Of a stretch of DNA of 52,997 bases, positions 6,253-30,762 are shown one piece after another. Position 1 is the stretch's first letter, and every line of letters begins with the position of its first letter. The translations under genes were made by a program, and so were the position numbers. The stretch is from Clostridiales bacterium (GTDB lineage: Bacteria; Bacillota; Clostridia; Lachnospirales; Lachnospiraceae). The stretch lies in NCBI GenBank assembly GCA_021203005.1, contig JAJQCB010000221.1, positions 1-52,997 on the forward strand, written 5' to 3'. The notes beneath the pieces were generated by a model, which made no database searches, was not told the origin of the DNA, and was given only the letters and a program-made list of their open reading frames with translations.

Positions 6253-6467
6253 ACAGAAGCATAGGAGATAACATCAGCTCTTTACGAAGAGCGAAAGGTC
6301 TGCGCCAGAGAGATCTGGGTGACCTTTGCGGAATGGCCGATTCCCGGATCGGTGAATACGAGAGAGACGAGCACATTCCAACAAAGGCTACGCTGGAGCG
6401 TATCGCTAAAGGACTTGGAGTGACGGTAGAGGTACTTCTTAGAGGAACGGAGGAAGAAACGATATGA
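6249..6467 (+). CDS. Small XRE-family regulator
   Basis: A 72-residue single-domain HTH_3 protein (SLRRAKGLRQRDLGDLCG then SRIGEYERDEHIPTKATLER). It overlaps its neighbours at both ends, so it is made together with the DUF3846-like protein and the large nuclease. It may tune expression of the recombination genes. Confidence 0.8.
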   Translation: MNRSIGDNISSLRRAKGLRQRDLGDLCGMADSRIGEYERDEHIPTKATLERIAKGLGVTVEVLLRGTEEETI

Positions 6468-9400
6468 GAAATTTCAAGGTGCTCCATACGGCCGACTGGC
6501 ATATTGGAAGCTTTAAGGGACCGGAAAAAGACGGGGTTAATCTCCGATCGGAAGATACAATGAATTGTTTGCGCCATCTGGTGAAGGTGGCGCAGGACGA
6601 AAAGCCCGATCTGGTTTTGGTGTCCGGAGATATTTTTCACCAGGCGGAAATCTGGCAGGGACGCAGCCACAAGGAAGTATTACAGGCGCGGGGAATCATT
6701 CTGGAGCTGTCGAAGGTGGCCGGACATGTAATCGTAATGCGCGGCACTCCGAACCATGATTCAGAGGAAGCCTTTGAGGAGCTGGCGGCCCACTTTGAAT
6801 TCAATGATCATGTATCGGTTATTACCAAGCCGGGGATGGTCAGCTCTCCGTATTTTGATATAGCGGTTGTGCCAGGCTTCGACAGGGGAGCATTCAGAGC
6901 GGCACACCCCGGCATATCCAAGGAGGAGGAAAACGTTATTTTCTCTGATGAGCTGGGGCAGGTCGTAGCCGGTATGAAGGCAATGTGCGGCGGAAACAGG
7001 GCCAGCATTCTGATGAGCCATTACACGGTGCCGGGCTGTAATACAGAGAGCGGCCAGACACAGTTTCTGACACAGTTTGAGCCGGTCATCACGCAAGACA
7101 TGCTTATGGCTGCTGACTATGATCTGGTGGCACTCGGACATATCCACAGACCGCAGAAAATACAGGGGCTGAAAAATGTATATTATTCCGGCGCTGTAAA
7201 TGCCATGAACTTTAATGACGAGAACCAGGAGAGAGGATTTTGGATACATAATTTTTCACTCAATCCGGTAACCAATCGGACAGAGTATCAGTATTCAGAT
7301 TTTCATAAGACGCCATACCGTGAGTTTGCCACATTCCATTTCACAGATACGGATATCACGGCGATTAACCTCGGGCATATGGAGGAAGTTGCCTTCAACA
7401 ACTGGAAGTACAATGGCTGGGCCGCGGATAAGATTGTCAGAGTGCTTTACACCTGTTCCGAAAAGCAGAAAAGGCTGTTCAACTCTGCGGTGGTTGAAAA
7501 ATCTCTGTATGAAGCGGGAGCTTTCTATGTGGCCGGTATCGAGGCGGAGAAGATTGAATCGGCGAACCGTACCGAATTGTCCAAGCAGGAGGATCCCGAA
7601 ACCAACCTCGTACAGTACCTGGAGGAAAAGCTGGTACCGCCGGAGAAGATTGACAGCATCGTTGAAAAGGCAAGACCAATCATCGCCATGGCCAAAGCAA
7701 ATTCTTCGGTATCAGAGTATTTCGGGACGTTTGTGCCAAAGGAGATCGAGGTACGGAACTATCGGAATTATGCGGAGCAGTATTTCTCTTTTGAGGATAT
7801 CAGCTTCTGCACCATCAACGGCCAGAACGGATCCGGAAAATCCTCACTTTTCATGGACGCCATTGTTGACTGCCTTTATGAAGAACCGAGAGAGGGAACC
7901 AACACCGGCTGGATCCGGAATGACGAGAAGGCACGGTCCGGCTCCATCTCCTTTACATTCGGACTGGGAGAGAAGACCTTTCGGGTGGTAAGAACCAGGA
8001 CGAAATCCGGAAAACCGACATTGAACCTGTCGGAGCTGCTCGACGGCGAATGGGCCGATCGTTCCAAGGAAAGGATCGCGGACACACAGAAAGAGATTAT
8101 ACGCATCCTCGGAATGGATAGCCTTACATTTAAGGCCTGCGTCCTCATTATGCAGGATCAATACGGAATTTTCCTCGAAGCAGGAAAAGAGGAGCGCATC
8201 GGTGTTCTCTCAAATCTTCTTGGGCTGGGAATATACGGTGTTATGGAAGACCTGACACGCGACCAGCTGGGCGCGCTGAAAAGAGAGATCGCAAAGCGGA
8301 ATCAGACGATCAATGTCCATAATAACACCATCTCCGGATATGGGAAGCCGGAGCAGGAAAAAGCCGAGATCGATGCCCTGCTCAAGGACGCCCAGGAGAA
8401 ACAGGCTGAATTGTCCAAGCAGAAAGAGGACAAGTCATTACTGCTGAGAATGCAGCAGGAAGCCGAGGAAAGGCGGCAGAGGGTACAGGCATCTGTTAAT
8501 GCTCTGATCCAGAAAAAGGCTGCTACAGAGCAAAATATAACGCTACAGACAAGCACCATAGCCAACTGCGACTACTTCCTGGAAACCGAGGCGGAGACAA
8601 TGGCAAAGGCAGCGAGGCATTCTGAACTGGCGGAAATGGATCGGGAGCTCGCGGGCGCTGCGATCGCCTATACGGCAAGGCATGAGGAATTGACGAGGCT
8701 CCATAACCAGGAAAGCCGGGAAGAGGCTGATATCAATCGCATGCAGATGAGTGTGGATGCCAAGCGGGAAGAGATCAATGCTCTGATATTGGAGTCGGCC
8801 AATGACGGAGAAGTAAAAAATAAGGCGGCTGAATACGAGCGCACTAAGAAACAGCTGGATGAAGCCTATGAGCAGGATCGTGCCTACCGCGCGTGTCAGA
8901 TGGAGCTTGATGGGGCGGTAAACGAAGGACTGCGGATCTCTGCGGCACATGATTCCGACCGCAGGAGGATGGAGGATAAGCTGGCTGGATATAAAAAGCA
9001 GGCTGAACTTCTGGACAATGTGGAGTGTGTTGACATTGAACATGCACGCTGCGGTTTCCTGTCCGAAGCCATATCCGCAAAGAAATCTCTGGATGAGTAC
9101 CCTACGCTCATGAAACAGGATGAGGAGAACTACCGGATCCAGATAGAGCCATACGATACCAAGATTGAAACATTGAAGGCAAAGCTGGCCGGAATGGAGA
9201 ACCCGGAGAAGAAAGTCTCAGATCTGCAGAGGAAGTGTTCGGAGCTGAAGCCGTTCACAGCGAAGCTTGCGGAGTTAAACCAGCGCGAAAGCCAGATAGC
9301 CCTGCTTAGAGCCACTGTAGATAATATGCAGTCAAATATATCCGAAGCACAGAAAAGGCTTGCAGAGGCGAAAATAAAGGCCTCTGAGGTCGAAAGAGAG

Positions 9401-10330
9401 ATGGCTGCGTTACAGGACAAGACCGACCAGCACAGGGCAGTCACGCAGGAAATGATAGAGCTTTCCCCGTACCTTGAAAAAGTGAATACCTATCCCGTTA
9501 TAAAGGAGCGGAAGAAAAATGCGGAGAACCAGAAAGCGGATGAGATTATCCGGCTGGCAGAGATAGAGCAGGAATTGGAGGCTGCGCGCCGCGAACTGGC
9601 AGAAACAACAGGGGCAACGATGGATATTTCACAGCTGAATGCTGATGTGAATTCCATCAATACGGAGCTGGAAACCATAAACCGGACGATAACCGGATAT
9701 CAGCAGACGATCGGTTCTCTGATACAGAAAATCGCAGAGATTGAGAAATTGACCAAAGAGGTAAAGAGTCTGCAGATCGAAGCCGGAAAGCTAACGGAGG
9801 ATCGTTCGGAGTACGAGCTTCTCAAATCGGCATTTTCCCAGGATGGTATTCCTCATCAGATTATCCGTTCATTGGTGCCGAAGCTGACGGAAATTTCCAG
9901 CAGCATTCTGGGGCAGATGACGGGCGGCAAGATGGGCATTGAATTTCAGACAGAAAAGGTAATGAAGAGCAACACCAATAAAGAGGTCGTTGCGCTGGAT
10001 ATCTTCATCGAGGAGTACGGAAAATCTGTGCTGCCGTACCTGTCCAAGTCCGGCGGGGAAAAGGTCAAGGCCTCGCTCTCGGTCATCCTCGCGCTGGCGG
10101 AGATCAAATCATCATCAGCAGGCATCCAGCTGGGAATGCTGTTCATCGATGAGCCGCCGTTCCTGGACAGCGATGGGATACAGGCATACTGCGACGCCCT
10201 TGAGACGATCCAGAAGCGATATCCGGATTTGAAGATCATGGCCATTACCCACGATCCGACAATGAAAGCCCGTTTCCCACAGAGTCTTGATGTCATAAAG
10301 ACAGATGAGGGGAGCAAGGTGATTTATTAA
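6464..10330 (+). CDS. Fused SbcD-SbcC (Mre11-Rad50-like) nuclease
   Basis: A 1288-residue protein that combines both subunits of the SbcCD/gp47-gp46 DNA end-processing complex. The N-terminal metallophosphoesterase has ADWH (10-13), GDIF (55-58), GTPNHD (94-99), SH (185-186) and GHIH (225-228). The ATPase part has Walker A GQNGSGKSS (453-461), a very long coiled coil (about 600-1150), signature SGGEK (about 1196-1200), Walker B LFIDEP (about 1226-1231) and ITHD (about 1261-1264). In the coil the usual CxxC zinc hook is replaced by C855 and C863 with seven residues between. The metal motif GTPNHD differs from the common GNHD. It overlaps the HTH gene by four bases. It should resect or cleave DNA ends for recombination-dependent replication. 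Confidence 0.9.
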   Translation: MRNFKVLHTADWHIGSFKGPEKDGVNLRSEDTMNCLRHLVKVAQDEKPDLVLVSGDIFHQAEIWQGRSHKEVLQARGIILELSKVAGHVIVMRGTPNHDSEEAFEELAAHFEFNDHVSVITKPGMVSSPYFDIAVVPGFDRGAFRAAHPGISKEEENVIFSDELGQVVAGMKAMCGGNRASILMSHYTVPGCNTESGQTQFLTQFEPVITQDMLMAADYDLVALGHIHRPQKIQGLKNVYYSGAVNAMNFNDENQERGFWIHNFSLNPVTNRTEYQYSDFHKTPYREFATFHFTDTDITAINLGHMEEVAFNNWKYNGWAADKIVRVLYTCSEKQKRLFNSAVVEKSLYEAGAFYVAGIEAEKIESANRTELSKQEDPETNLVQYLEEKLVPPEKIDSIVEKARPIIAMAKANSSVSEYFGTFVPKEIEVRNYRNYAEQYFSFEDISFCTINGQNGSGKSSLFMDAIVDCLYEEPREGTNTGWIRNDEKARSGSISFTFGLGEKTFRVVRTRTKSGKPTLNLSELLDGEWADRSKERIADTQKEIIRILGMDSLTFKACVLIMQDQYGIFLEAGKEERIGVLSNLLGLGIYGVMEDLTRDQLGALKREIAKRNQTINVHNNTISGYGKPEQEKAEIDALLKDAQEKQAELSKQKEDKSLLLRMQQEAEERRQRVQASVNALIQKKAATEQNITLQTSTIANCDYFLETEAETMAKAARHSELAEMDRELAGAAIAYTARHEELTRLHNQESREEADINRMQMSVDAKREEINALILESANDGEVKNKAAEYERTKKQLDEAYEQDRAYRACQMELDGAVNEGLRISAAHDSDRRRMEDKLAGYKKQAELLDNVECVDIEHARCGFLSEAISAKKSLDEYPTLMKQDEENYRIQIEPYDTKIETLKAKLAGMENPEKKVSDLQRKCSELKPFTAKLAELNQRESQIALLRATVDNMQSNISEAQKRLAEAKIKASEVEREMAALQDKTDQHRAVTQEMIELSPYLEKVNTYPVIKERKKNAENQKADEIIRLAEIEQELEAARRELAETTGATMDISQLNADVNSINTELETINRTITGYQQTIGSLIQKIAEIEKLTKEVKSLQIEAGKLTEDRSEYELLKSAFSQDGIPHQIIRSLVPKLTEISSSILGQMTGGKMGIEFQTEKVMKSNTNKEVVALDIFIEEYGKSVLPYLSKSGGEKVKASLSVILALAEIKSSSAGIQLGMLFIDEPPFLDSDGIQAYCDALETIQKRYPDLKIMAITHDPTMKARFPQSLDVIKTDEGSKVIY

Positions 10331-23950: not shown

Positions 23951-24535
23951 GTGGAAGAAAAGGAAAAAGGACCGGTAATTATAGCTTTGTCCCAGGAGGA
24001 TTTGCAGGACCTTCTGGAAAAAGCAGCGAATGCCGGCGCGAGAGCTGGGATTGATAAATATGTGGAGGAGGTAAAAGCCTCACAGAAAAAACGGACGGAC
24101 AGGCGTCTGCACAACACGAAGCTGCTTCTCCGGAATTATCGGATGCTGGAAGCCCATGCAGAGAATTCCGTATTCGGTCGGACGCAGATGAAAGAGACGG
24201 CGGCGGACATTCTGGAAAGCATGATGAATATATACAATGACGAGCTTGTGGTCGAAAGCATCCGGAACAGCGCAACCAGGACCGCGATCATAGTAAGCCA
24301 TGTCAGGACGATGCTGGAGATATATGAGACGTGCTGCGAAAAATCCTCAAACGAACTGGACCGGCGCCGTTACGATATCGTCTATGGATTATACATAGCG
24401 GAGGATAAAATCTCGCGGAAAGGGCTGGCCGAGAAGTGGTGCGTATCCATGGACACGACCTATTCTGATGAAAAGATCGCCATCGAAAGGCTGTCGGCTC
24501 TCATTTTTGGGGTGGATGGCTTGTCATTACAATAA
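23951..24535 (+). CDS. ArpU-like late gene transcription regulator
   Basis: A 194-residue protein. The N-terminal helical part has KKRTDRRLHNTKLLLRNYRM, a hallmark of ArpU/RinA-type regulators of Firmicute phages. The C-terminus (IVYGLYIAEDKISRKGLAEK then STDTTYSDEKIA-like text at about 160-180) forms a sigma-region-4-like HTH. It starts at GTG after GGGAGG. It ends just before the promoter at 24561 and is placed, as usual, just ahead of the late genes it should activate. Confidence 0.75.
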   Translation: MEEKEKGPVIIALSQEDLQDLLEKAANAGARAGIDKYVEEVKASQKKRTDRRLHNTKLLLRNYRMLEAHAENSVFGRTQMKETAADILESMMNIYNDELVVESIRNSATRTAIIVSHVRTMLEIYETCCEKSSNELDRRRYDIVYGLYIAEDKISRKGLAEKWCVSMDTTYSDEKIAIERLSALIFGVDGLSLQ

Positions 24536-24560: not shown

Positions 24561-24590
24561 TTGACGCCCTAATATATAAAATGCTACACT
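24561..24590 (+). promoter_or_regulatory. Promoter in front of the symporter cassette
   Basis: TTGACG (24561-24566) and TACACT (24585-24590) are separated by 18 bases. It lies immediately after the ArpU-like gene, in the place where late promoters are expected, and would give an untranslated leader of about 100 bases before the gene at 24696. Confidence 0.55.
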
Positions 24591-24617
24591 GTATCGGTAA
24601 AATTCTAATCAACGAGG

Positions 24618-24654
24618 CGCCGGGCAGAGATATTACTCTTTGCCGGGCGTTTTG
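24618..24654 (+). other. Leader hairpin upstream of the symporter gene
   Basis: CGCCGGGCAGAG (24618-24629) pairs with CTCTTTGCCGGGCG (24636-24649), with one G-G mismatch and a TT bulge, and is followed by TTTT. It could be a partial terminator of the early operon, an attenuator of the cassette or a 5' UTR structure. The rest of the 160-base gap shows no gene. Confidence 0.5.
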
Positions 24655-24695: not shown

Positions 24696-26105
24696 ATGCA
24701 AGGGATAATTATATTGATTATCTATGCACTCATCATGGTGGGTGCGACAACTCTTTTTACCAAGCGAGAAAACGGAGGCGAGAGCTTCTATGTAGGAAAC
24801 CGGAATATGGGCACCATAGTATCAGCTATGAGCGTGGCGGCAACCTGGATATGGGCGCCGGCGCTGTTCACATCAGCGGAGAAGGCGTACTCGAACGGTA
24901 TTGCAGGGCTGTTCTGGTTCCTTGTGCCGAATGTGCTGTGCCTGTTATTATTCATACCGTTTGCACGGAAGATACGGCGGGAAATGCCAGATGGAATCAC
25001 ACTGTCTGGATACATGCACAGGAAATATGAATCCGAGGGCGTGAAACGTGTCTATCTGTTTCAGCTGACTGTCCTGGCTTTCTTATCGACGGCGGTGCAG
25101 CTGCTCGCCGGCGGGAAGATACTGAGCATGGCGACGGGATTACCTTTATGGGCTATGACAATCATACTGGCTGTCATAGCCTTTTCGTATTCCCAGATAT
25201 CCGGGATAAAAGCCTCGGTTCTGACGGATGCGATCCAAATGATATTCCTGCTTCTGGCCTGTGCGGTGTTCGTGCCGTGGGCGCTGAAGCTGAACGGAGG
25301 CTTATCTGCAGTAAAGCTGACGGGAATCAGCGGCGAGTATGGCAGCCTCTTTTCGGAGAAGGGTCTGGAGGTGTTCCTGGGCTTCGGCCTGCCGACGGCG
25401 ATCGGGCTGTTTGCCGGCCCGTTCGGGGATCAATGCTTCTGGCAGAGAGCGTTTTCCGTCAGAAAGGACAGGATCGGCAGAGCATTTGGAATCGGCGCAG
25501 TCATGTTCGCAGTAGTCCCACTTTCTATGGGCATCCTTGGATTTATCGCGGCTGGGATCGGCTTCATACCGGCAGACACAGGCTCGGTCAATTTTGAACT
25601 GATCAGCGCCATATTCCCGACATGGGCGCTCATCCCGTTTATGTTCATGCTGATTTCCGGCCTGCTGTCCACTGTGGACAGCAACCTGTGCGCGATTTCT
25701 TCTCTGACGACTGATCTGAAGGTATCAGAGAAGATGATCGATGCAGGGAAGATGGTGCTGTCCAAGGGGTCTATGGTACTCCTACTTGTAGTTGGCATTC
25801 TGATCGCCAATATTCCGGGGCTGACGGTAACGCACATGTTCCTGTTTTACTGCACGTTCCGCGCGGCGACAATGCTCCCGACGATGCTCACTCTGTTGAA
25901 TGTCCAGCTTAGAGCCGGAGGAGTGATAAGCGGGATAATCACTGCCTTGGCCGTAGGGCTCCCTGTTTTCGCCTACGGGACGATTTATAACCTTTCAGCA
26001 TATAAAACAGCCGGGAGCCTCATAACCGTCCTGTCGGCTGGAATCGTGTCTATTCTCGTATCAAAATTCCCAAAATCGGGGGAGGTGGTACGGAATGGGA
26101 AATGA
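24696..26105 (+). CDS. Sodium:solute symporter (SSF family)
   Basis: A 469-residue membrane protein with about 12-13 hydrophobic helices. The N-terminus (FTKRENGGESFYVGNRNMGT then SAMSVAATWIWAPALFTSAE) is typical of the sodium/solute symporter family, which includes transporters for proline, sugars, panthothenate, urea and nucleobases. The substrate cannot be read from the sequence. It starts after GAAGGAGG. The gene overlaps the PP-loop gene by 11 bases. A full-length transporter in a phage, coupled to enzymes, suggests import of a substrate for them, which is inference. Confidence 0.85.
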   Translation: MQGIIILIIYALIMVGATTLFTKRENGGESFYVGNRNMGTIVSAMSVAATWIWAPALFTSAEKAYSNGIAGLFWFLVPNVLCLLLFIPFARKIRREMPDGITLSGYMHRKYESEGVKRVYLFQLTVLAFLSTAVQLLAGGKILSMATGLPLWAMTIILAVIAFSYSQISGIKASVLTDAIQMIFLLLACAVFVPWALKLNGGLSAVKLTGISGEYGSLFSEKGLEVFLGFGLPTAIGLFAGPFGDQCFWQRAFSVRKDRIGRAFGIGAVMFAVVPLSMGILGFIAAGIGFIPADTGSVNFELISAIFPTWALIPFMFMLISGLLSTVDSNLCAISSLTTDLKVSEKMIDAGKMVLSKGSMVLLLVVGILIANIPGLTVTHMFLFYCTFRAATMLPTMLTLLNVQLRAGGVISGIITALAVGLPVFAYGTIYNLSAYKTAGSLITVLSAGIVSILVSKFPKSGEVVRNGK

Positions 26106-26886
26106 AGCACTCGGCCGAAAACAGAGAATCAGCAATAGCGCATGGTTTGAAGCCATGGAGAATATAGAAGAGGCCGTTCCAAAATCCGCCATAGATAAAA
26201 AGGTGGGAAAGACCGTAAAAGACATCAAGGCGGCGACCAAGGGAAAGAGAGCTGCTTTTGCATGGAGCGGGGGAAAGGATTCTCTGGTACTGGAGCAGAT
26301 CTGTTACATGGCGGGCATTGAAGAGTGCCTGCTCGTGATCTGCGATCTGGAATACCGGGAGTTCCTCGCGTGGGTGACGGACCACATGCCTCGGTGTCTG
26401 GAAATTATCGATACCGGCCAGGATATGGACTGGCTTGCGGCGCATCCTCAGATGCTTTTCCCGCAGACGTCCAATGTGGCCGCGCAATGGTTCCACATTG
26501 TTCAGCACAGAGGACAGGCACGGTATTATAAGAACCGGGGTCTGGACATGCTCCTGCTCGGCAGGAGGCGCGCCGATGGTAATTATGTCGGCAAGGGCAG
26601 CAATGTTTATACAGACGGCAAGGGCGTGACACGATACAGCCCGCTGGCCGACTGGAGCCATGAGGAAATCCTGGCTTTTATCCATTACAATAAAATTCCG
26701 TTACCGCCATTTTACAGCTGGTGCAACGGGTATTATTGCGGTACCCATCCGTGGCCGGCAAGGCAATGGACGGGATCCATTGAGAACGGGTGGAAAGAGG
26801 TATATTCGATAGACCCGTCCATCGTGCAGGAGGCAGCGCAGCGCATTCCAAGCGCCAGAGAATTTCTGGAAAGCGGGGTGATGTGA
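26095..26886 (+). CDS. PP-loop (PAPS reductase-like) ATP-dependent enzyme
   Basis: A 263-residue protein with the ATP-binding PP-loop SGGKDS (58-63) followed by LVLEQICYMAG. Further family segments are LLVICDLEYREFLAWV, LDMLLLGRRRADGN (about 150-163) and SPLADWSHEEILAFIHYN. Proteins of this fold activate a substrate by adenylation or reduce PAPS. The C-terminal CNGYYCG (about 210-216) could hold a metal or act in sulfur chemistry. It starts after GGGGGAGG inside the symporter gene. The amidotransferase gene follows two bases after it ends. Confidence 0.8.
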   Translation: MGNEALGRKQRISNSAWFEAMENIEEAVPKSAIDKKVGKTVKDIKAATKGKRAAFAWSGGKDSLVLEQICYMAGIEECLLVICDLEYREFLAWVTDHMPRCLEIIDTGQDMDWLAAHPQMLFPQTSNVAAQWFHIVQHRGQARYYKNRGLDMLLLGRRRADGNYVGKGSNVYTDGKGVTRYSPLADWSHEEILAFIHYNKIPLPPFYSWCNGYYCGTHPWPARQWTGSIENGWKEVYSIDPSIVQEAAQRIPSAREFLESGVM

Positions 26887-26887
26887 T

Positions 26888-27487
26888 ATGTGCGGCATCT
26901 TCGGCGCGATCGGAAAATCAATAAAGCAGGAAATCCTGCAAGAGATTGCAGGGGAGGCGTTGAAAAGAGGCCCGCAGGCCTATGGAATTGCCTATTTTGA
27001 AGATGAAAACATTTGCACACAAAAGTATGCAAATGCAATCAAACCGCAGAGAGCTTTTCGAGGCATAAAGCCGGAATCCATCATTGGAAATTGCCGACTG
27101 GCCACATGCGGGAAATATACCGATATCGTCAGCAACCAGCCCATGGTGGCCGGAGAAACGGCGATATCCCACAACGGAAACATTCGAAGCTATTTGCAGA
27201 TAGCGGAGGATGAACACATACAGCTGGAGACCAGCTGTGACAGTGAAATCATATGCCACCTGGTAAATGCGTGGGGACTTGAAAAGACAATCCAGCGCTT
27301 ATCGGGGGAAATGCCTATGGCGCTTTTGATCCTTCAAAGAAACAAAATAACAGCCTACCGAAACGGGCAGCCGTTGTACGCATTGAGCGTGGACGGGTGC
27401 CATTATTTCTGCAGTCGGAATTTTACCGGAGCAGAGGAATTAGAGGAAGGCCGGATTTATGAATTTGGAGGAGGCCATGATGAATAA
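26888..27487 (+). CDS. Stand-alone class II glutamine amidotransferase
   Basis: A 199-residue protein that begins MCGIFGAIG, exposing the nucleophile Cys2 after Met removal. It has the class II glutaminase motifs GNCRLATCG (67-75), SHNGNI (94-99) and CDSE (117-120), as in the N-terminal domains of PurF, GlmS and asparagine synthetase. It has no phosphoribosyl, isomerase or synthetase domain of its own, so its ammonia must go to another protein. The neighbouring PP-loop enzymes are the obvious partners. The next gene begins within its last codons. Confidence 0.85.
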   Translation: MCGIFGAIGKSIKQEILQEIAGEALKRGPQAYGIAYFEDENICTQKYANAIKPQRAFRGIKPESIIGNCRLATCGKYTDIVSNQPMVAGETAISHNGNIRSYLQIAEDEHIQLETSCDSEIICHLVNAWGLEKTIQRLSGEMPMALLILQRNKITAYRNGQPLYALSVDGCHYFCSRNFTGAEELEEGRIYEFGGGHDE

Positions 27488-28127
27488 TATCACGATGAAG
27501 CTGTCCGAGATGGTAAAGCCGGAAAGGAATGTGAGGATCCATACCGAGCAGCAGCTGAGGGAATTCGAGAGAAGCGTGAAGATGTTCGGACAGATCCGCC
27601 CCATCGTGGTGGATGAGAAGAATGTAATACTGGCCGGAAACGGCCTGTATGAAACGCTGATCCGGATGGGATATGAGGAAGCATTGGTTTATCAGTTAAC
27701 CGACCTCACAGAAAACCAGAAGAAAAAACTGATGATCGCTGATAATAAGATATTTTCCCTGGGGATAGAGAATCTTGAGACGCTCAACGCATTTTTGGAA
27801 GATCTTGAGGACGATCTGGACATCCCCGGTTTTGATTCTGATATCCTGAAGCAGATGGTATCAGAAGCAGAGGAGATCACAGAGAAGCTTTCAGAGTATG
27901 GCACGCTGGACGAGGGAGAAATCCAGTCCATAAAAGACCGCGCCGCCCGGAAGGAGGCCGAGTTAGAACCAGAAAACGGCAATTCTGGTTTTAACGGGGG
28001 CGAAACACCCGAAAATGGAGCCGTAACAATCAGAAGCGATCTGATAGAGCAGGAGCAGGACGAGGATACCGCCGAAATAAAGAGATTCGTCATCTGCCCC
28101 AAGTGCGGGGAAAAGATATGGCTGTAA
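27477..28127 (+). CDS. ParB-like protein with C-terminal CxxC
   Basis: A 216-residue protein. The N-terminal ParB/Srx-type domain (about 10-100) has ERNVRIHTEQQL, FGQIRPIVVDEKNVILAGNG and LMIADNKIFSLG. The ADNK word is typical of phage ParB-like domains. An acidic helical middle follows, and the end has CPKCGEKIW. ParB-fold domains bind CTP or act as nucleases or kinases. The role here is unknown. It starts after GGAGGAGG and overlaps the amidotransferase by 11 bases. Confidence 0.8.
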   Translation: MMNNITMKLSEMVKPERNVRIHTEQQLREFERSVKMFGQIRPIVVDEKNVILAGNGLYETLIRMGYEEALVYQLTDLTENQKKKLMIADNKIFSLGIENLETLNAFLEDLEDDLDIPGFDSDILKQMVSEAEEITEKLSEYGTLDEGEIQSIKDRAARKEAELEPENGNSGFNGGETPENGAVTIRSDLIEQEQDEDTAEIKRFVICPKCGEKIWL

Positions 28128-29266
28128 AAAGGTGCGAAGCCAGCATCGATGTTGTGAAAGCTGCGGAAATCCGGATCACGAATGTGTTTAATAACGGATT
28201 GCCGGTCTATATGTCCTTCTCCGGCGGTAAGGACAGCCTGTGCATGGCGCAGCTGATATACAACCTGGTGCAGCGGGGGAAAATCAACCCCGCGCAGCTG
28301 ACGGTGCAGTTCATTGATGAAGAGGCGATATTCTCGTGCATCGAGGAAACCGTCAAGGCGTGGAGAAAACGCTTTCTACTCATGGGTGCCAAATTCGAGT
28401 GGTTTTGTCTGGAGGTGAAGCATTATAACTGCTTCAATGAGCTTTCCAATGACGAAACCTTTATCTGCTGGGACAGCACGAAGGAAGATGTGTGGGTAAG
28501 ACGCCCGCCGTCATTCGCGATACGCACCCATCCGAAGCTTCGGCCGCGGATAGATGCGTATCAGGATTTTCTGCCGAGAGTATGCCAGGATGGGCTTACC
28601 ATTACCGGCATCCGGACGGCAGAATCGGTACAGAGATTACAGAACATCGCTTCCATGACGAAAGCCGGGAGGGCGATGACGAATAAGCACCAGGTATTCC
28701 CGATATACGATTGGACCAATAATGACGTCTGGCTGTATCTGCTGAATGAACATGTCGAGATACCGGAGATATACCTGTTTTTGTGGCAGGCCGGTACGAA
28801 GAAAGGACAGCTGAGGGTATCGCAGTTCTTTTCTGTAGATACCGCCCGAAGCCTTGTCAGCATGAATGAGTATTATCCGGACCTTATGGAGCGGGTAATA
28901 CGCAGGGAACCGAACGCTTATCTCGCGGCGCTGTACTGGGACAGCGAGATGTTCGGCCGGAGTACGGCGGCTCGGAAAGAAAATGAAAAGGGGCAGGAGA
29001 CGAAGGATTATAAGGCAGAGTTGATCGAGATGTTTAACCATATGGACGTCTATTTCAATACCGAGCATAAACGCTATGTAGCGTCTCGGTACCGGAATTT
29101 CTTCATCTCTGTCGCTGCAATCGCAACCGATAAGGATTATAAAGCCATCTATGAAGGGCTCGTTTCCGGGGATCCGAAGCTGCGCTCTTACCGCGCTCTT
29201 TACCAGAGGATATACGGCCGGTACATTACCGAGGCCAAAAGGGAGGAGGTGAAGCGCAATGGATAA
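28118..29266 (+). CDS. ibrA: IbrA-like PP-loop protein
   Basis: A 382-residue protein with PP-loop SGGKDS (35-40), then FIDEEAIFSCIEETVKAW, an inserted DUF3440-like region, GIRTAESVQRLQNIA and FPIYDWTNNDVWLYL. This combination is the IbrA type, paired with an IbrB ParB-like protein in E. coli and other bacteria. There they affect expression of surface immunoglobulin-binding proteins, by an unknown reaction. The IbrB-like gene follows with overlap. The ATG at 28118 is chosen over GTG 28103, and both have only a weak GGGGA site, which suggests translational coupling to the preceding gene. Confidence 0.85.
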   Translation: MAVKRCEASIDVVKAAEIRITNVFNNGLPVYMSFSGGKDSLCMAQLIYNLVQRGKINPAQLTVQFIDEEAIFSCIEETVKAWRKRFLLMGAKFEWFCLEVKHYNCFNELSNDETFICWDSTKEDVWVRRPPSFAIRTHPKLRPRIDAYQDFLPRVCQDGLTITGIRTAESVQRLQNIASMTKAGRAMTNKHQVFPIYDWTNNDVWLYLLNEHVEIPEIYLFLWQAGTKKGQLRVSQFFSVDTARSLVSMNEYYPDLMERVIRREPNAYLAALYWDSEMFGRSTAARKENEKGQETKDYKAELIEMFNHMDVYFNTEHKRYVASRYRNFFISVAAIATDKDYKAIYEGLVSGDPKLRSYRALYQRIYGRYITEAKREEVKRNG

Positions 29267-29813
29267 ACTCATGCAGCCCGCCTCCACACTGCAGTGGATT
29301 GACCGGGATATGGTAAAACCCAACGACTACAACCCCAACAAGGTGTCAAAACAGAACCTGGAGTTGCTGACACAATCCATCTTCACGAACGGCTGGACAC
29401 TCCCTATTGTGGTCCGCCCCGATTATACGATCATTGACGGCTTCCACCGATGGACAGTAGCCGGCCCGGAGTGGTCTTATGTTCCTCCATCTGAAAAGGA
29501 TAAGAGGACACTGTATGAGCGACTGGGAGGAAAGGTTCTGATCGTGATCGTGGATCACAAGGATAGGGCGGGGAATATTTACGGAACCGTCACCCACAAC
29601 AGGGCCAGAGGTACCCATCTTCTGGAGCCGATGAAGAAAATTGTTAAAGAGCTCATGGATGAGGGGAAGTCGGTAGATGAAATCGGGAGAGAGCTGGGCA
29701 TGCGTCCGGAAGAAATCTTCCGCCTGTCTGACTTCTCGAAAGAGGACTTTCTGAAGATGATGGTGCAGGGTCGCCCGAATTATTCAAAAGCGGAATTCAT
29801 TACGAAAATATAA
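29259..29813 (+). CDS. ibrB: IbrB-like ParB-domain protein
   Basis: A 184-residue protein with DMVKPNDYNPNKVSKQNLEL, GWTLPIVVRPDYTIIDGFHR and THNRARGTHLLEPM, the pattern of IbrB and related ParB-like proteins. A short helical tail has an HTH-like GKSVDEIGRELGMRPEEIFR. It starts after GGGAGGAGG and overlaps ibrA by eight bases, the last gene of the cassette before a terminator. In known pairs IbrB works with IbrA. Confidence 0.85.
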   Translation: MDKLMQPASTLQWIDRDMVKPNDYNPNKVSKQNLELLTQSIFTNGWTLPIVVRPDYTIIDGFHRWTVAGPEWSYVPPSEKDKRTLYERLGGKVLIVIVDHKDRAGNIYGTVTHNRARGTHLLEPMKKIVKELMDEGKSVDEIGRELGMRPEEIFRLSDFSKEDFLKMMVQGRPNYSKAEFITKI

Positions 29814-29842
29814 TGATATTACATGAAAGACACGTAAAACGG

Positions 29843-29866
29843 GGGAGGGCTTTTGTCCTCCCTTTT
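29843..29866 (+). terminator. Terminator at the end of the accessory cassette
   Basis: GGGAGG (29843-29848) pairs with CCTCCC (29857-29862) around an 8-base loop and is followed by TTTT. The G-rich flank extends the pairing options. It would separate the cassette from the terminase genes, perhaps incompletely. Confidence 0.6.
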
Positions 29867-29910: not shown

Positions 29911-30762
29911 ATGCCGAAACCAAGAAGTCCAGATGTGGATAAACGAAGTGATGAACGCAAGAAGGCGGAGCAGATATTTCTTGATAGCAAGGGAAATATG
30001 AAGCTGGTCGAGATTGCCGAGAAGCTGGGGCTTCCGGCGAACAAGATTCGGAAGTGGAAGTCGCTGGACGGATGGGAGGCAAAGTTACACCCTACTGCCA
30101 ATGAAAAAGGCAAAAAAAAACCGGTGGAGCGTTCCACCGATGAAAAGGGGAGCGTTCCACGAAAGCGCGGCGCTCCAAAAGGGAACAGGAACTCTGTAGG
30201 CAACAGGGGGAATCCGAATGCCGTGCCGCCAGACGTCACAAAGCATGGCGGCTATTCGGCGGTATATTGGGATGTTCTGGATGACGAAGAAAAAGGGCTT
30301 ATCGAGGATATGCCGAAAGATGAAGAAATGCTCCTGCTGGAGCAGATACAGCTTTTCTCTGTCCGAGAGCGCCGCATCATGCAGGCGATCAATAAATATC
30401 GCAATACGGATAGCCCGGTCGCCGTATCGTTTACGAACCGCTCTGAGAGAAAGAGGGCTTTTGAGAACGAGGAGGAAGAGAAAGAGTACAACCGGATTGT
30501 GGCCGAGAAGGTCGCAAACGGTGAGAGGATGCCGGGAAGGGAATGCCAAACATTCACGCAGACTGACAACAAAGATCAGATCATCGCTCGGCTTGAGAGT
30601 GAGCTGTCAAATGTGCAGAGTAAGAAGACCAAAGCAATAGAGGCTCTGGCGAAGCTGCATATCGAGAAGCAGAAGCTGGCCGGAGATACAGCTGCCAATG
30701 ATGTTGTGAAATCCTGGGCGGAAAAGGTCCTGAAGACAAGGAGGGGTTCAGATGCAGAATGA
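29911..30762 (+). CDS. terS: Terminase small subunit (YqaS/XtmA type)
   Basis: A 283-residue protein. The N-terminus (RKKAEQIFLDSKGNMKLVEI then ADKLGLP-type HTH, about 15-50) is the small-terminase HTH that binds the packaging site. The middle is basic (RKRGAPKGNRNSVGNRGNPN), and the C-terminus is a long helix used for oligomerisation (about 210-270). It starts after GGAGGGAGG and overlaps the large subunit gene. Confidence 0.85.
   Translation: MPKPRSPDVDKRSDERKKAEQIFLDSKGNMKLVEIAEKLGLPANKIRKWKSLDGWEAKLHPTANEKGKKKPVERSTDEKGSVPRKRGAPKGNRNSVGNRGNPNAVPPDVTKHGGYSAVYWDVLDDEEKGLIEDMPKDEEMLLLEQIQLFSVRERRIMQAINKYRNTDSPVAVSFTNRSERKRAFENEEEEKEYNRIVAEKVANGERMPGRECQTFTQTDNKDQIIARLESELSNVQSKKTKAIEALAKLHIEKQKLAGDTAANDVVKSWAEKVLKTRRGSDAE

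Follow-up and report, generated by a model that had tools for sequence, protein, structure and literature searches.

Organization of the cassette

The window analysed here, a 52,997-nucleotide stretch of DNA from a Clostridiales bacterium (Lachnospiraceae; contig JAJQCB010000221.1 of GCA_021203005.1), is contig 286 of a 312-contig, 3.83-Mb assembly and contains a tailed-phage region with DNA polymerase processivity factor, terminase, head protease and tape-measure genes. Open reading frame (ORF) calls and family matches bear out the initial annotation of this region, which had placed six overlapping plus-strand genes (24696..29813) between a presumed late regulator and the small terminase subunit gene terS; the promoter-like sequence and leader hairpin that it described ahead of the block and the terminator-like hairpin behind it were both found. 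As a whole, the cassette looks like an apparently undescribed pathway that imports a compound and attaches it to something.

Ahead of the cassette lies REG, the presumed late-gene regulator (23951..24535, plus strand), which belongs to phrog_1558, a family without assigned function, and stands ahead of the symporter gene in many relatives. It is followed by a conserved leader (24561..24652, plus strand) with a promoter-like sequence, a GTAAAAT box at 24597 and a terminator-like hairpin at approximately 24616-24652. The first cassette gene, SYM (24696..26105; ATG start, with a longer TTG ORF from 24657), encodes a sodium:solute symporter and overlaps by 11 bp with PAPA (26095..26886), a PP-loop enzyme and optional member. 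After a 1-bp gap comes GAT (26888..27487), an accessory stand-alone class II glutaminase (GATase_6, 2.5e-13). PB1 (27480 or 27459..28127), a ParB/Srx-fold protein with a C-terminal CxxC motif (phrog_620, 1e-48), overlaps GAT by 8 or 29 bp and is followed, with a 10-bp overlap, by the IbrA-type PP-loop enzyme PAPB (28118..29266, with an upstream GTG at 28103). The last gene, PB2 (29259..29813), overlaps PAPB by 8 bp and encodes an IbrB-type ParB/Srx-fold protein with matches to ParB_N (3.7e-6) and phrog_2159 (4.2e-68); its match to a PDB 'CAP REPEAT' chain at 8.3e-13, in which no single stretch passed by itself, was discarded as a repeat artefact. The terminator-like hairpin lies at 29841..29864 (plus strand), between the cassette and terS (29911..30762, plus strand; phrog_1889, 3.7e-61), which lies outside the cassette.

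Conservation of the cassette as a unit

The counts given below describe the matches listed by pattern-based scans, not frequencies in nature, and the viral sets from separate scans have contigs in common. A viral-contig scan with SYM alone returned 90 relatives, from which 80 loci were taken forward, and a species-level scan with the SYM profile (one genome per species, 84,980 species) gave 76 loci; at least 4.2 kb of downstream DNA was needed, and 8 of the 80 viral and 13 of the 76 genome loci were too short. PB1, PAPB and PB2 follow SYM in this order in 70 of 72 viral loci and 50 of 63 genome loci, that is, in 120 of the 135 loci with enough DNA, and 9 of the 15 exceptions are distant non-cassette relatives. 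The initial annotation would have been contradicted by homologues that rarely co-occur, and the core genes co-occur in most loci of these two sets. Of the 70 viral core loci, 56 also carry PAPA, 48 show a nearby terminase visible to the model built on the window's sequence, and GAT is absent from all of them; among the 50 genome core loci, PAPA is present in 44 and GAT in one (L160, a Hespellia metagenome-assembled genome). The viral exceptions are L084, with SYM, PAPA and PB2, and L110, with an interrupted SYM, while the 13 genome exceptions comprise the nine distant relatives, the partial cassettes L207 and L210, and the interrupted symporters L218 and L226. Clustered at 95% identity, SYM forms 112 groups. 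The full core accompanies 97 of these, more than chance would give, and PAPA is present in 74 of the 97; the other 15 lack the full core.

Similarly, a reverse scan with PAPB alone gave 47 matches, many of them on contigs also met in the SYM scan. After one weak match (L159) was dropped, SYM was found whole or in part in 37 of 46 loci, the remaining nine being contigs that start inside PAPA or no more than about 200 bases from the PAPB match. A scan with diverged symporters gave 80 loci, 77 of them newly named (many contigs had been seen before), and 76 of the 77 carry PAPB or PB1. Permuted orders also occur, namely PB1-SYM-IbrA-IbrB (L262, L267, L274 and L275) and SYM-x-PB1-IbrB-IbrA (L336 and L337); the same set is thus kept in a shuffled order, which points to function rather than to one inherited segment.

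The genes also appear to have diverged together. Distance correlations, all of them inflated by kinship and with terL scored only where the window's own model sees it, are 0.67-0.83 among the five cassette genes and 0.32-0.39 against terL for 45 common representatives, and 0.63-0.82 and 0.34-0.41, respectively, for pairwise sets of 45-103; the SYM-terS and terS-terL values are 0.46 and 0.44, and the permutation p is 0.002 for every pair. At the level of these sequence distances, the contrast between the cassette and terL stands despite the inflation by kinship. With ORFs taken from the furthest start, which inflates overlaps, the junctions overlap or leave at most 20 bp in 76 of 76 cases for SYM-PAPA, 101 of 102 for PB1-PAPB, 93 of 97 for PAPB-PB2 and 23 of 28 for SYM-PB1. 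The PAPA-PB1 junction, which is the place of GAT in the window, is loose (35 of 74). On a SYM tree built by a quick method with a midpoint root, the cassette symporters all lie on one side of a branch with a Shimodaira-Hasegawa-like approximate likelihood ratio (SH-aLRT) support of 99, and PAPA presence changes at least 16 times, at least 11 of these changes being forced by strong branches. PAPA is therefore optional and the rest of the set steady.

An accumulation of unrelated cargo genes at a preferred site would accommodate the repeated changes of PAPA and the sporadic glutaminase, but the core order in 120 of 135 loci, the permuted orders with the same set and the distance correlations all argue against it. 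The free variation that it predicts failed for the core genes, though it may yet hold for the glutaminase, and we regard this explanation as extremely improbable. The genes other than the glutaminase are supported, on this comparative evidence, as one unit. The six-gene system of the initial annotation therefore stands in part: SYM, PB1, PAPB and PB2 are conserved and PAPA is an optional member, but GAT, seen in the window and in L160 only, drops out.

The cassette is rare among random relatives, since the PB2 profile is met in 5 of 398 genomes of the phylum and the PAPA profile in 2 of 391 genomes of the class, the window's own genome included in both. Of 50,697 phage records, one, an unannotated faecal record, contains close counterparts of the window's SYM and PAPA. 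Named hosts of the cassette include Anaerotruncus colihominis DSM 17241, Agathobaculum desmolans ATCC 43058 and Acetatifactor muris DSM 23669. Four Treponema-binned contigs (L211-L214) carry the importer and core without PAPA; provided that the binning holds, the cassette may thus occur in more than one phylum.

Several loci are interrupted by other DNA. The symporters of L110 (near 3540) and of L218 and L226 (near 10987) are broken at the same place, just past a conserved SGLLST, and the interrupting DNA looks by eye like an integrated element with excisionase-like and sigma-like ORFs; a mobile element may use the cassette symporter as its attachment site. In Eubacterium plexicaudatum ASF492 (L198:11720-15023), PAPA is split by an insertion of about 3.3 kb with ORFs that look by eye transposition-like.

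The glutaminase GAT

GAT of the window and of L160 are 69% identical and have the MCGIFG, GNCRLAT, SHNGN and CDSEI motifs, which mark them as predicted class II glutaminases. The residues concerned, namely the Cys after the initiator Met, the Arg, the Asn-Gly and the Asp, would have roles as in GlmS. GAT as part of the conserved unit was rejected: tblastn found it in none of 82 loci, and a hidden Markov model (HMM) in none of the 70 viral and one of the 50 genome core loci. A viral-contig scan with patterns derived from GAT itself returned no relatives. In 145 related genomes, relatives at E <=1e-10 amount to six domains, all in open frames of 611-631 amino acids, and in phage records there are 67 distant matches, all below 60% identity and mostly from Escherichia phages.

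The importer, its relatives and its substitutes

SYM belongs to the SSF family (80.1 bits against a gathering score of 22.8; 2e-22) and to phrog_20720 (7.6e-186). Its closest solved relatives are the DUR3 urea-proton symporters (1.2e-14 by sequence and 1.3e-23 by profile), followed by a choline transporter (2.4e-9 and 2.5e-18). DUR3 and SYM have a W.WA motif in common in the alignment; on the other hand, SYM is 469 amino acids long as against 704-773, is phage-borne and forms its own family, phrog_20720. The possibility that SYM is an ordinary nutrient symporter gene was rejected, as other SSS genes of related genomes are only 22-29% identical to it; the sole close match there besides the window is 65% identical (genome G048) and has PB1 and PAPA beside it.

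Outside the cassette, relatives of SYM have a PP-loop gene with an SGGxDS motif adjoining or one gene away in seven of nine loci, compared with a PP-loop-motif gene near none of 28 ordinary SSS control loci; the control flanks are shorter (approximately 1.5 kb, against up to 10 kb), and by our reckoning six of the seven positive loci keep the motif within 1.5 kb. A Pfam scan of the partners, which left out that of L223, identified four as asparagine-synthase-like (3.9e-69 to 1.3e-73). Of the two loci without such a PP-loop gene, L227 shows a weak match (0.007) to class II tRNA synthetases. The initial annotation had linked an importer to ATP-using PP-loop enzymes, and this link recurs both in these non-cassette relatives and in further importer-bearing IbrA loci. 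Import and activation are very probably the functional link within the cassette.

In four bacterial loci, a protein of about 330 amino acids that appears by eye to be of a zinc-ribbon/membrane type lies beside the asparagine-synthase-like gene and the symporter (L220:1665-2654, L222:7167-8153, L225:8788-9825 on the minus strand, and L228:7210-8220); the L220 member, the only one scanned, had nothing above the Pfam cut-off. Another locus, L269:4498-9620, has SYM and a ParB-like gene with no IbrA seen, followed by ORFs that look by eye inositol-phosphate-synthase-like and nucleotidyltransferase-like.

The SYM slot can also be taken by another protein. In the Faecalibacterium phages Taranis and Pioen it holds a 333-amino-acid membrane protein (Taranis gp35), which was found in 11 further viral loci, with the core following in 11 of 11 and PAPA present in four. 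The hhalign comparison with SYM gives a probability of 88% (E 3e-6) and covers about the N-terminal half, where both proteins have ATW and GPF motifs; the protein has no Pfam SSF match and no relative among solved sequences (best 0.51). Its predicted structure is almost all helix, with a mean predicted local distance difference test score (pLDDT) of 79.8 and a predicted template modelling score (pTM) of 0.79. We tentatively take it as a shortened, remotely related symporter.

The ParB-IbrA-IbrB core in other phages

PAPB and PB2 adjoin each other and are homologous to the annotated IbrA and IbrB of phage Taranis (gp37 and gp38). In the 50,697 phage records, PAPB has matches in 213 and PB2 in 219, and the matching records are mostly those of Flavobacterium (90), Mycobacterium (55), Streptococcus (21) and Arthrobacter (12) phages. 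In the regions fetched from Mycobacterium, Bacillus and Arthrobacter phages, no importer was recognised alongside the core. In Obutu and Laroye, a ParB, a PAPS protein and a second ParB lie ahead of the terminase, with no importer recognised in the fetched region.

A viral scan with 10 diverse IbrA sequences returned at least 418 relatives, of which 80 loci were kept, with stretches of up to 4.5 kb on each side; the HMMs used for counting the cupins, GNATs, TctC and other genes were built from members of this same locus set. Among the 80 kept loci, IbrB is present in 75, ParB1 in 58, cupins in 20, GNATs of two kinds in 15 (11 and 4), methyltransferases in nine (6, 2 and 1) and PAPA in three. 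A TctC periplasmic solute-binding protein lies between ParB1 and IbrA in three of them, two of which are probably near-copies; the two proteins tested match Pfam TctC at 1.7e-38 and 2.9e-32, and the phage records hold a single match, 28% identical. Counting SYM, the short membrane protein and TctC, at least two kinds of solute-uptake part, and probably three, have been joined to the core. TctC, the cupins and the GNATs were considered as parts of the window's system and rejected, as they belong to other IbrA modules, and PHROGs did not support these GNATs being Mom-like. Exchangeable enzymes of this kind (cupins, GNATs and methyltransferases) would suit a modification pathway.

The cupin-like family carries the signature GRLxYI(D/N)GC(T/S)D and often lies between ParB1 and IbrA; its 20 loci are L370, L371, L374, L380, L384, L388, L410, L415 and 12 others. 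The member from L370 has no match in the 50,697 phage records.

To our knowledge, there is no agreed biochemistry for IbrA and IbrB. The cassette might instead be a regulatory module, in which IbrA and IbrB co-activate (pro)phage transcription and SYM and PAPA link the late genes to a nutrient. Notes in the records of Taranis (gp37 and gp38) and CHPC877 describe them as co-activators of prophage gene expression, co-activator or regulator labels are given to IbrA and IbrB in the parts consulted of PMC4490671 and PMC8813620, and the cassette, preceded by a conserved leader, is flanked by a presumed regulator and terS. However, the PP-loop and GxR..ES motifs are kept in 36 PAPB and 10 diverse IbrA sequences, which argues for catalysis, and the accessory GNAT, methyltransferase and cupin genes fit a pathway better than a sensor. 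We therefore hold the regulatory explanation to be unlikely, although it is the strongest of the rivals considered here.

The PP-loop enzymes PAPA and PAPB

PAPA matches PAPS_reduct (5.3e-10) and is weakly CysH-like by sequence, and PAPB matches PAPS_reduct (2e-13) and phrog_2302 (1e-94). In the alignment of 36 PAPB sequences, S35, G37, K38 and D39 of the PP-loop are invariant, and the GxR..ES motif is kept together with it; in PAPA, S58, G60, K61 and S63 are invariant and D62 reaches at least 90%. The strict SGGKD string is found in 55% of PAPA rows and 89% of PAPB rows. The 10 diverse IbrA sequences have in common residues of the SGGKDS, D.E, G.R..ES..R and P..DW...D types. The catalytic cysteine motif of PAPS/APS reductase (CysH) is ECGLH; the pattern ECG[LIV]H occurs in none of 44 PAPA and none of 36 PAPB sequences. 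On balance, an adenylating or pyrophosphatase enzyme seems to fit PAPA and PAPB better than a reductase does.

The initial annotation had also considered the addition of sulfur, which could take the form of DNA phosphorothioation or tRNA thiolation. In its favour are partial domain matches of PAPB to DndC and BrxP, a weak tRNA thiolase match of PAPB (0.003 over 47 positions) and conserved cysteines: PAPB has C105 in every one of 36 rows, C97 in 94%, C74 in 89% and C117 in 83%, and PAPA has C70 and C215 in 95% each. On the other hand, DndC is described in the part consulted of PMC10853773 as using a cysteine-coordinated 4Fe-4S centre and a cysteine dyad, but no cysteine is invariant among the 10 diverse IbrA sequences, and no desulfurase, DndD, DndE or SspB relative is found among the six genes, the flanks not having been searched for them. 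A sulfur role is disfavoured because the ECGLH motif is missing and the diverse IbrA sequences have no invariant cysteine; given the conserved cysteines of the cassette PAPA and PAPB, we still allow it a very small probability. Adenylation, rather than reduction or thiolation, is the reaction that these enzymes probably perform.

The leader and the timing of expression

The promoter-like sequence in front of SYM, TTGACG-18-TACACT, lies at 24561-24590; matches to such a consensus are not enriched over shuffles (6 seen, 6.3 expected). The leader contains a strong hairpin (leader fold -43.1 kcal/mol, z -4.85). Of the 38 unique leaders, 27 combine a GTAAAAT box, picked post hoc after the leaders had been inspected, with a terminator-like hairpin behind it; 20 rounds of single-base shuffling gave a mean of 0.0 for this arrangement. 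Of the 41 leaders (38 unique), the box is present in 28 and the hairpin in 32, with shuffle means of 0.55 and 1.3, and the Taranis leader has a similar arrangement by eye. A leader riboswitch that would name the substrate was rejected, as Rfam gave no match at the gathering score in the window and one chance match beneath it. The conserved leader between REG and SYM suggests that the cassette opens a late operon, perhaps under antitermination, with the leader as a candidate switch perhaps operated by the phrog_1558 protein. We infer that the cassette is expressed late.

The GTAAAAT box also occurs elsewhere in the window, at 527 and 30908. At 6464-10330, a 1288-amino-acid ORF matches SbcD-like and SbcC-like nuclease families and is apparently a fused SbcCD.

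This timing bears on two further explanations. If the genes served lysogen fitness or auxiliary metabolism, they would feed the host, for example through nitrogen or sulfur uptake. Such genes of Clostridium clostridioforme prophages are filed as host-metabolism PAPS reductases in the part consulted of PMC11318856 (phrog_424 and phrog_2302 at orfs 40 and 42 of prophage 14), the importer is DUR3-like, and ParB-fold proteins can be metabolic enzymes, such as SerK and SbnI (PMC12704722, seen in part). However, the block sits in what its place and leader suggest to be a late operon, the sulfonucleotide-reductase motif is missing from PAPA and PAPB, and the core occurs without a recognised importer in the fetched phage stretches mentioned above, so that a role in host metabolism appears improbable. 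The other explanation is that the cassette is a moron for phage defence, an outcome that the initial annotation had listed, or for superinfection exclusion. The cargo-like place, the membrane protein and the ATP enzymes would fit, and ParB-fold nucleases are said to occur in conflict systems in the part consulted of PMC5512222. But late transcription would be the wrong time for exclusion, and PADLOC-DB yields partial domain hits only, namely three DndC/BrxP hits for PAPB (53-190 amino acids) and one methyltransferase-model hit for PB1, with no full-length system match. Defence thus gains no support, and we consider it as improbable as sulfur insertion.

Proposed mechanism

Taken together, we tentatively propose, at somewhat below an even chance, that the cassette is a phage import-and-adenylate module on a ParB-IbrA-IbrB core that probably modifies nucleic acid. 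SYM, as a DUR3-like SSS symporter, would bring in a small nitrogen-containing or carboxylate compound, which PAPA, as a PP-loop ATP pyrophosphatase, may activate by adenylation. As a local refinement in the window, GAT could feed ammonia to the PAPA step, the two forming a split asparagine-synthetase-like pair. PB1, IbrA and IbrB would then couple the product onto a target, using ATP or another NTP; proteins with the ParB/Srx fold bind nucleotides (CTP, ATP or GTP), and among them are two serine kinases, SerK and SbnI, according to the part consulted of PMC12704722. The most likely target would be phage nucleic acid, late in infection and before packaging, and we put the chances of a nucleic acid target at about even.

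Several observations weigh against this import-and-adenylate proposal. The similarity to DUR3 leaves the substrate of SYM unfixed: yeast Dur3 transports polyamines. A Candida DUR31 is reportedly a thiamin transporter (PMC5997356). SYM or the short membrane protein is present in only four of the 80 kept IbrA loci (of at least 418 relatives); PAPA is lacking in 23 of the 97 clusters with a full core and GAT in every locus but two, so that neither is essential. Among the PP-loop partners of non-cassette symporters, that of L221 has no Pfam match, and that of L234, in a Parasutterella prophage whose contig is also present in the viral collection, matches Asn_synthase at 3e-4, just below the cut-off. 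No known DNA-modifying transferase is found in the window cassette. The shorter control flanks, the conserved cysteines of PAPA and PAPB and the co-activator labels of IbrA and IbrB, given above, count on the same side.

A more specific variant is modelled on the lysidine chemistry of TilS, and we consider it rather doubtful. Here, an imported small molecule would be attached to a base of phage DNA: the PP-loop enzyme would adenylate a carbonyl, and the imported amine or an amidated derivative would attack it. In that case, IbrA and IbrB would form a general platform with which phages modify bases, and importers, acetyltransferases, methyltransferases and cupins would be tailoring parts that can be swapped on it. 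If a phage does import the precursor of a modified base, the surroundings of the host would be tied to the make-up of viral DNA.

Comparison with known systems

No description of this gene combination was found among open-licence papers, and the words 'symport' and 'transporter' gave no hit in the main text of PMC11318856. The Dnd, Ssp and BREX type 4 phosphorothioation systems have a distant PP-loop relationship to the cassette, and Dnd includes a ParB-superfamily protein, DndB (PMC10853773, seen in part); in contrast to these systems, the six genes include no partner ATPase or desulfurase, and the 10 diverse IbrA sequences lack an invariant cysteine. In the Dpd 7-deazaguanine system, the ParB-like ATPase DpdB helps to insert the modified base, according to the part consulted of PMC12839542, but there is no transglycosylase among the six genes; the likeness is an analogy only.

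Asparagine synthetase-like enzymes combine a class II glutaminase with a PP-loop, and this architecture is found in four neighbours of the non-cassette SYM relatives. In the window, by contrast, GAT and PAPA are adjoining separate genes, and PAPA lies on the PAPS_reduct side of the PP-loop superfamily; the asparagine-synthase-like neighbours in L220, L222, L225 and L228 lack Cys2, whereas GAT of the window and of L160 has it. Finally, compared with the IbrA/IbrB pair, the cassette has an SSS importer, usually PAPA and a further ParB-like protein preceding the pair. An importer in an IbrA/IbrB operon, with non-phage relatives beside PP-loop genes, offers a first concrete handle on IbrA and IbrB, which are present in more than 200 phage records.

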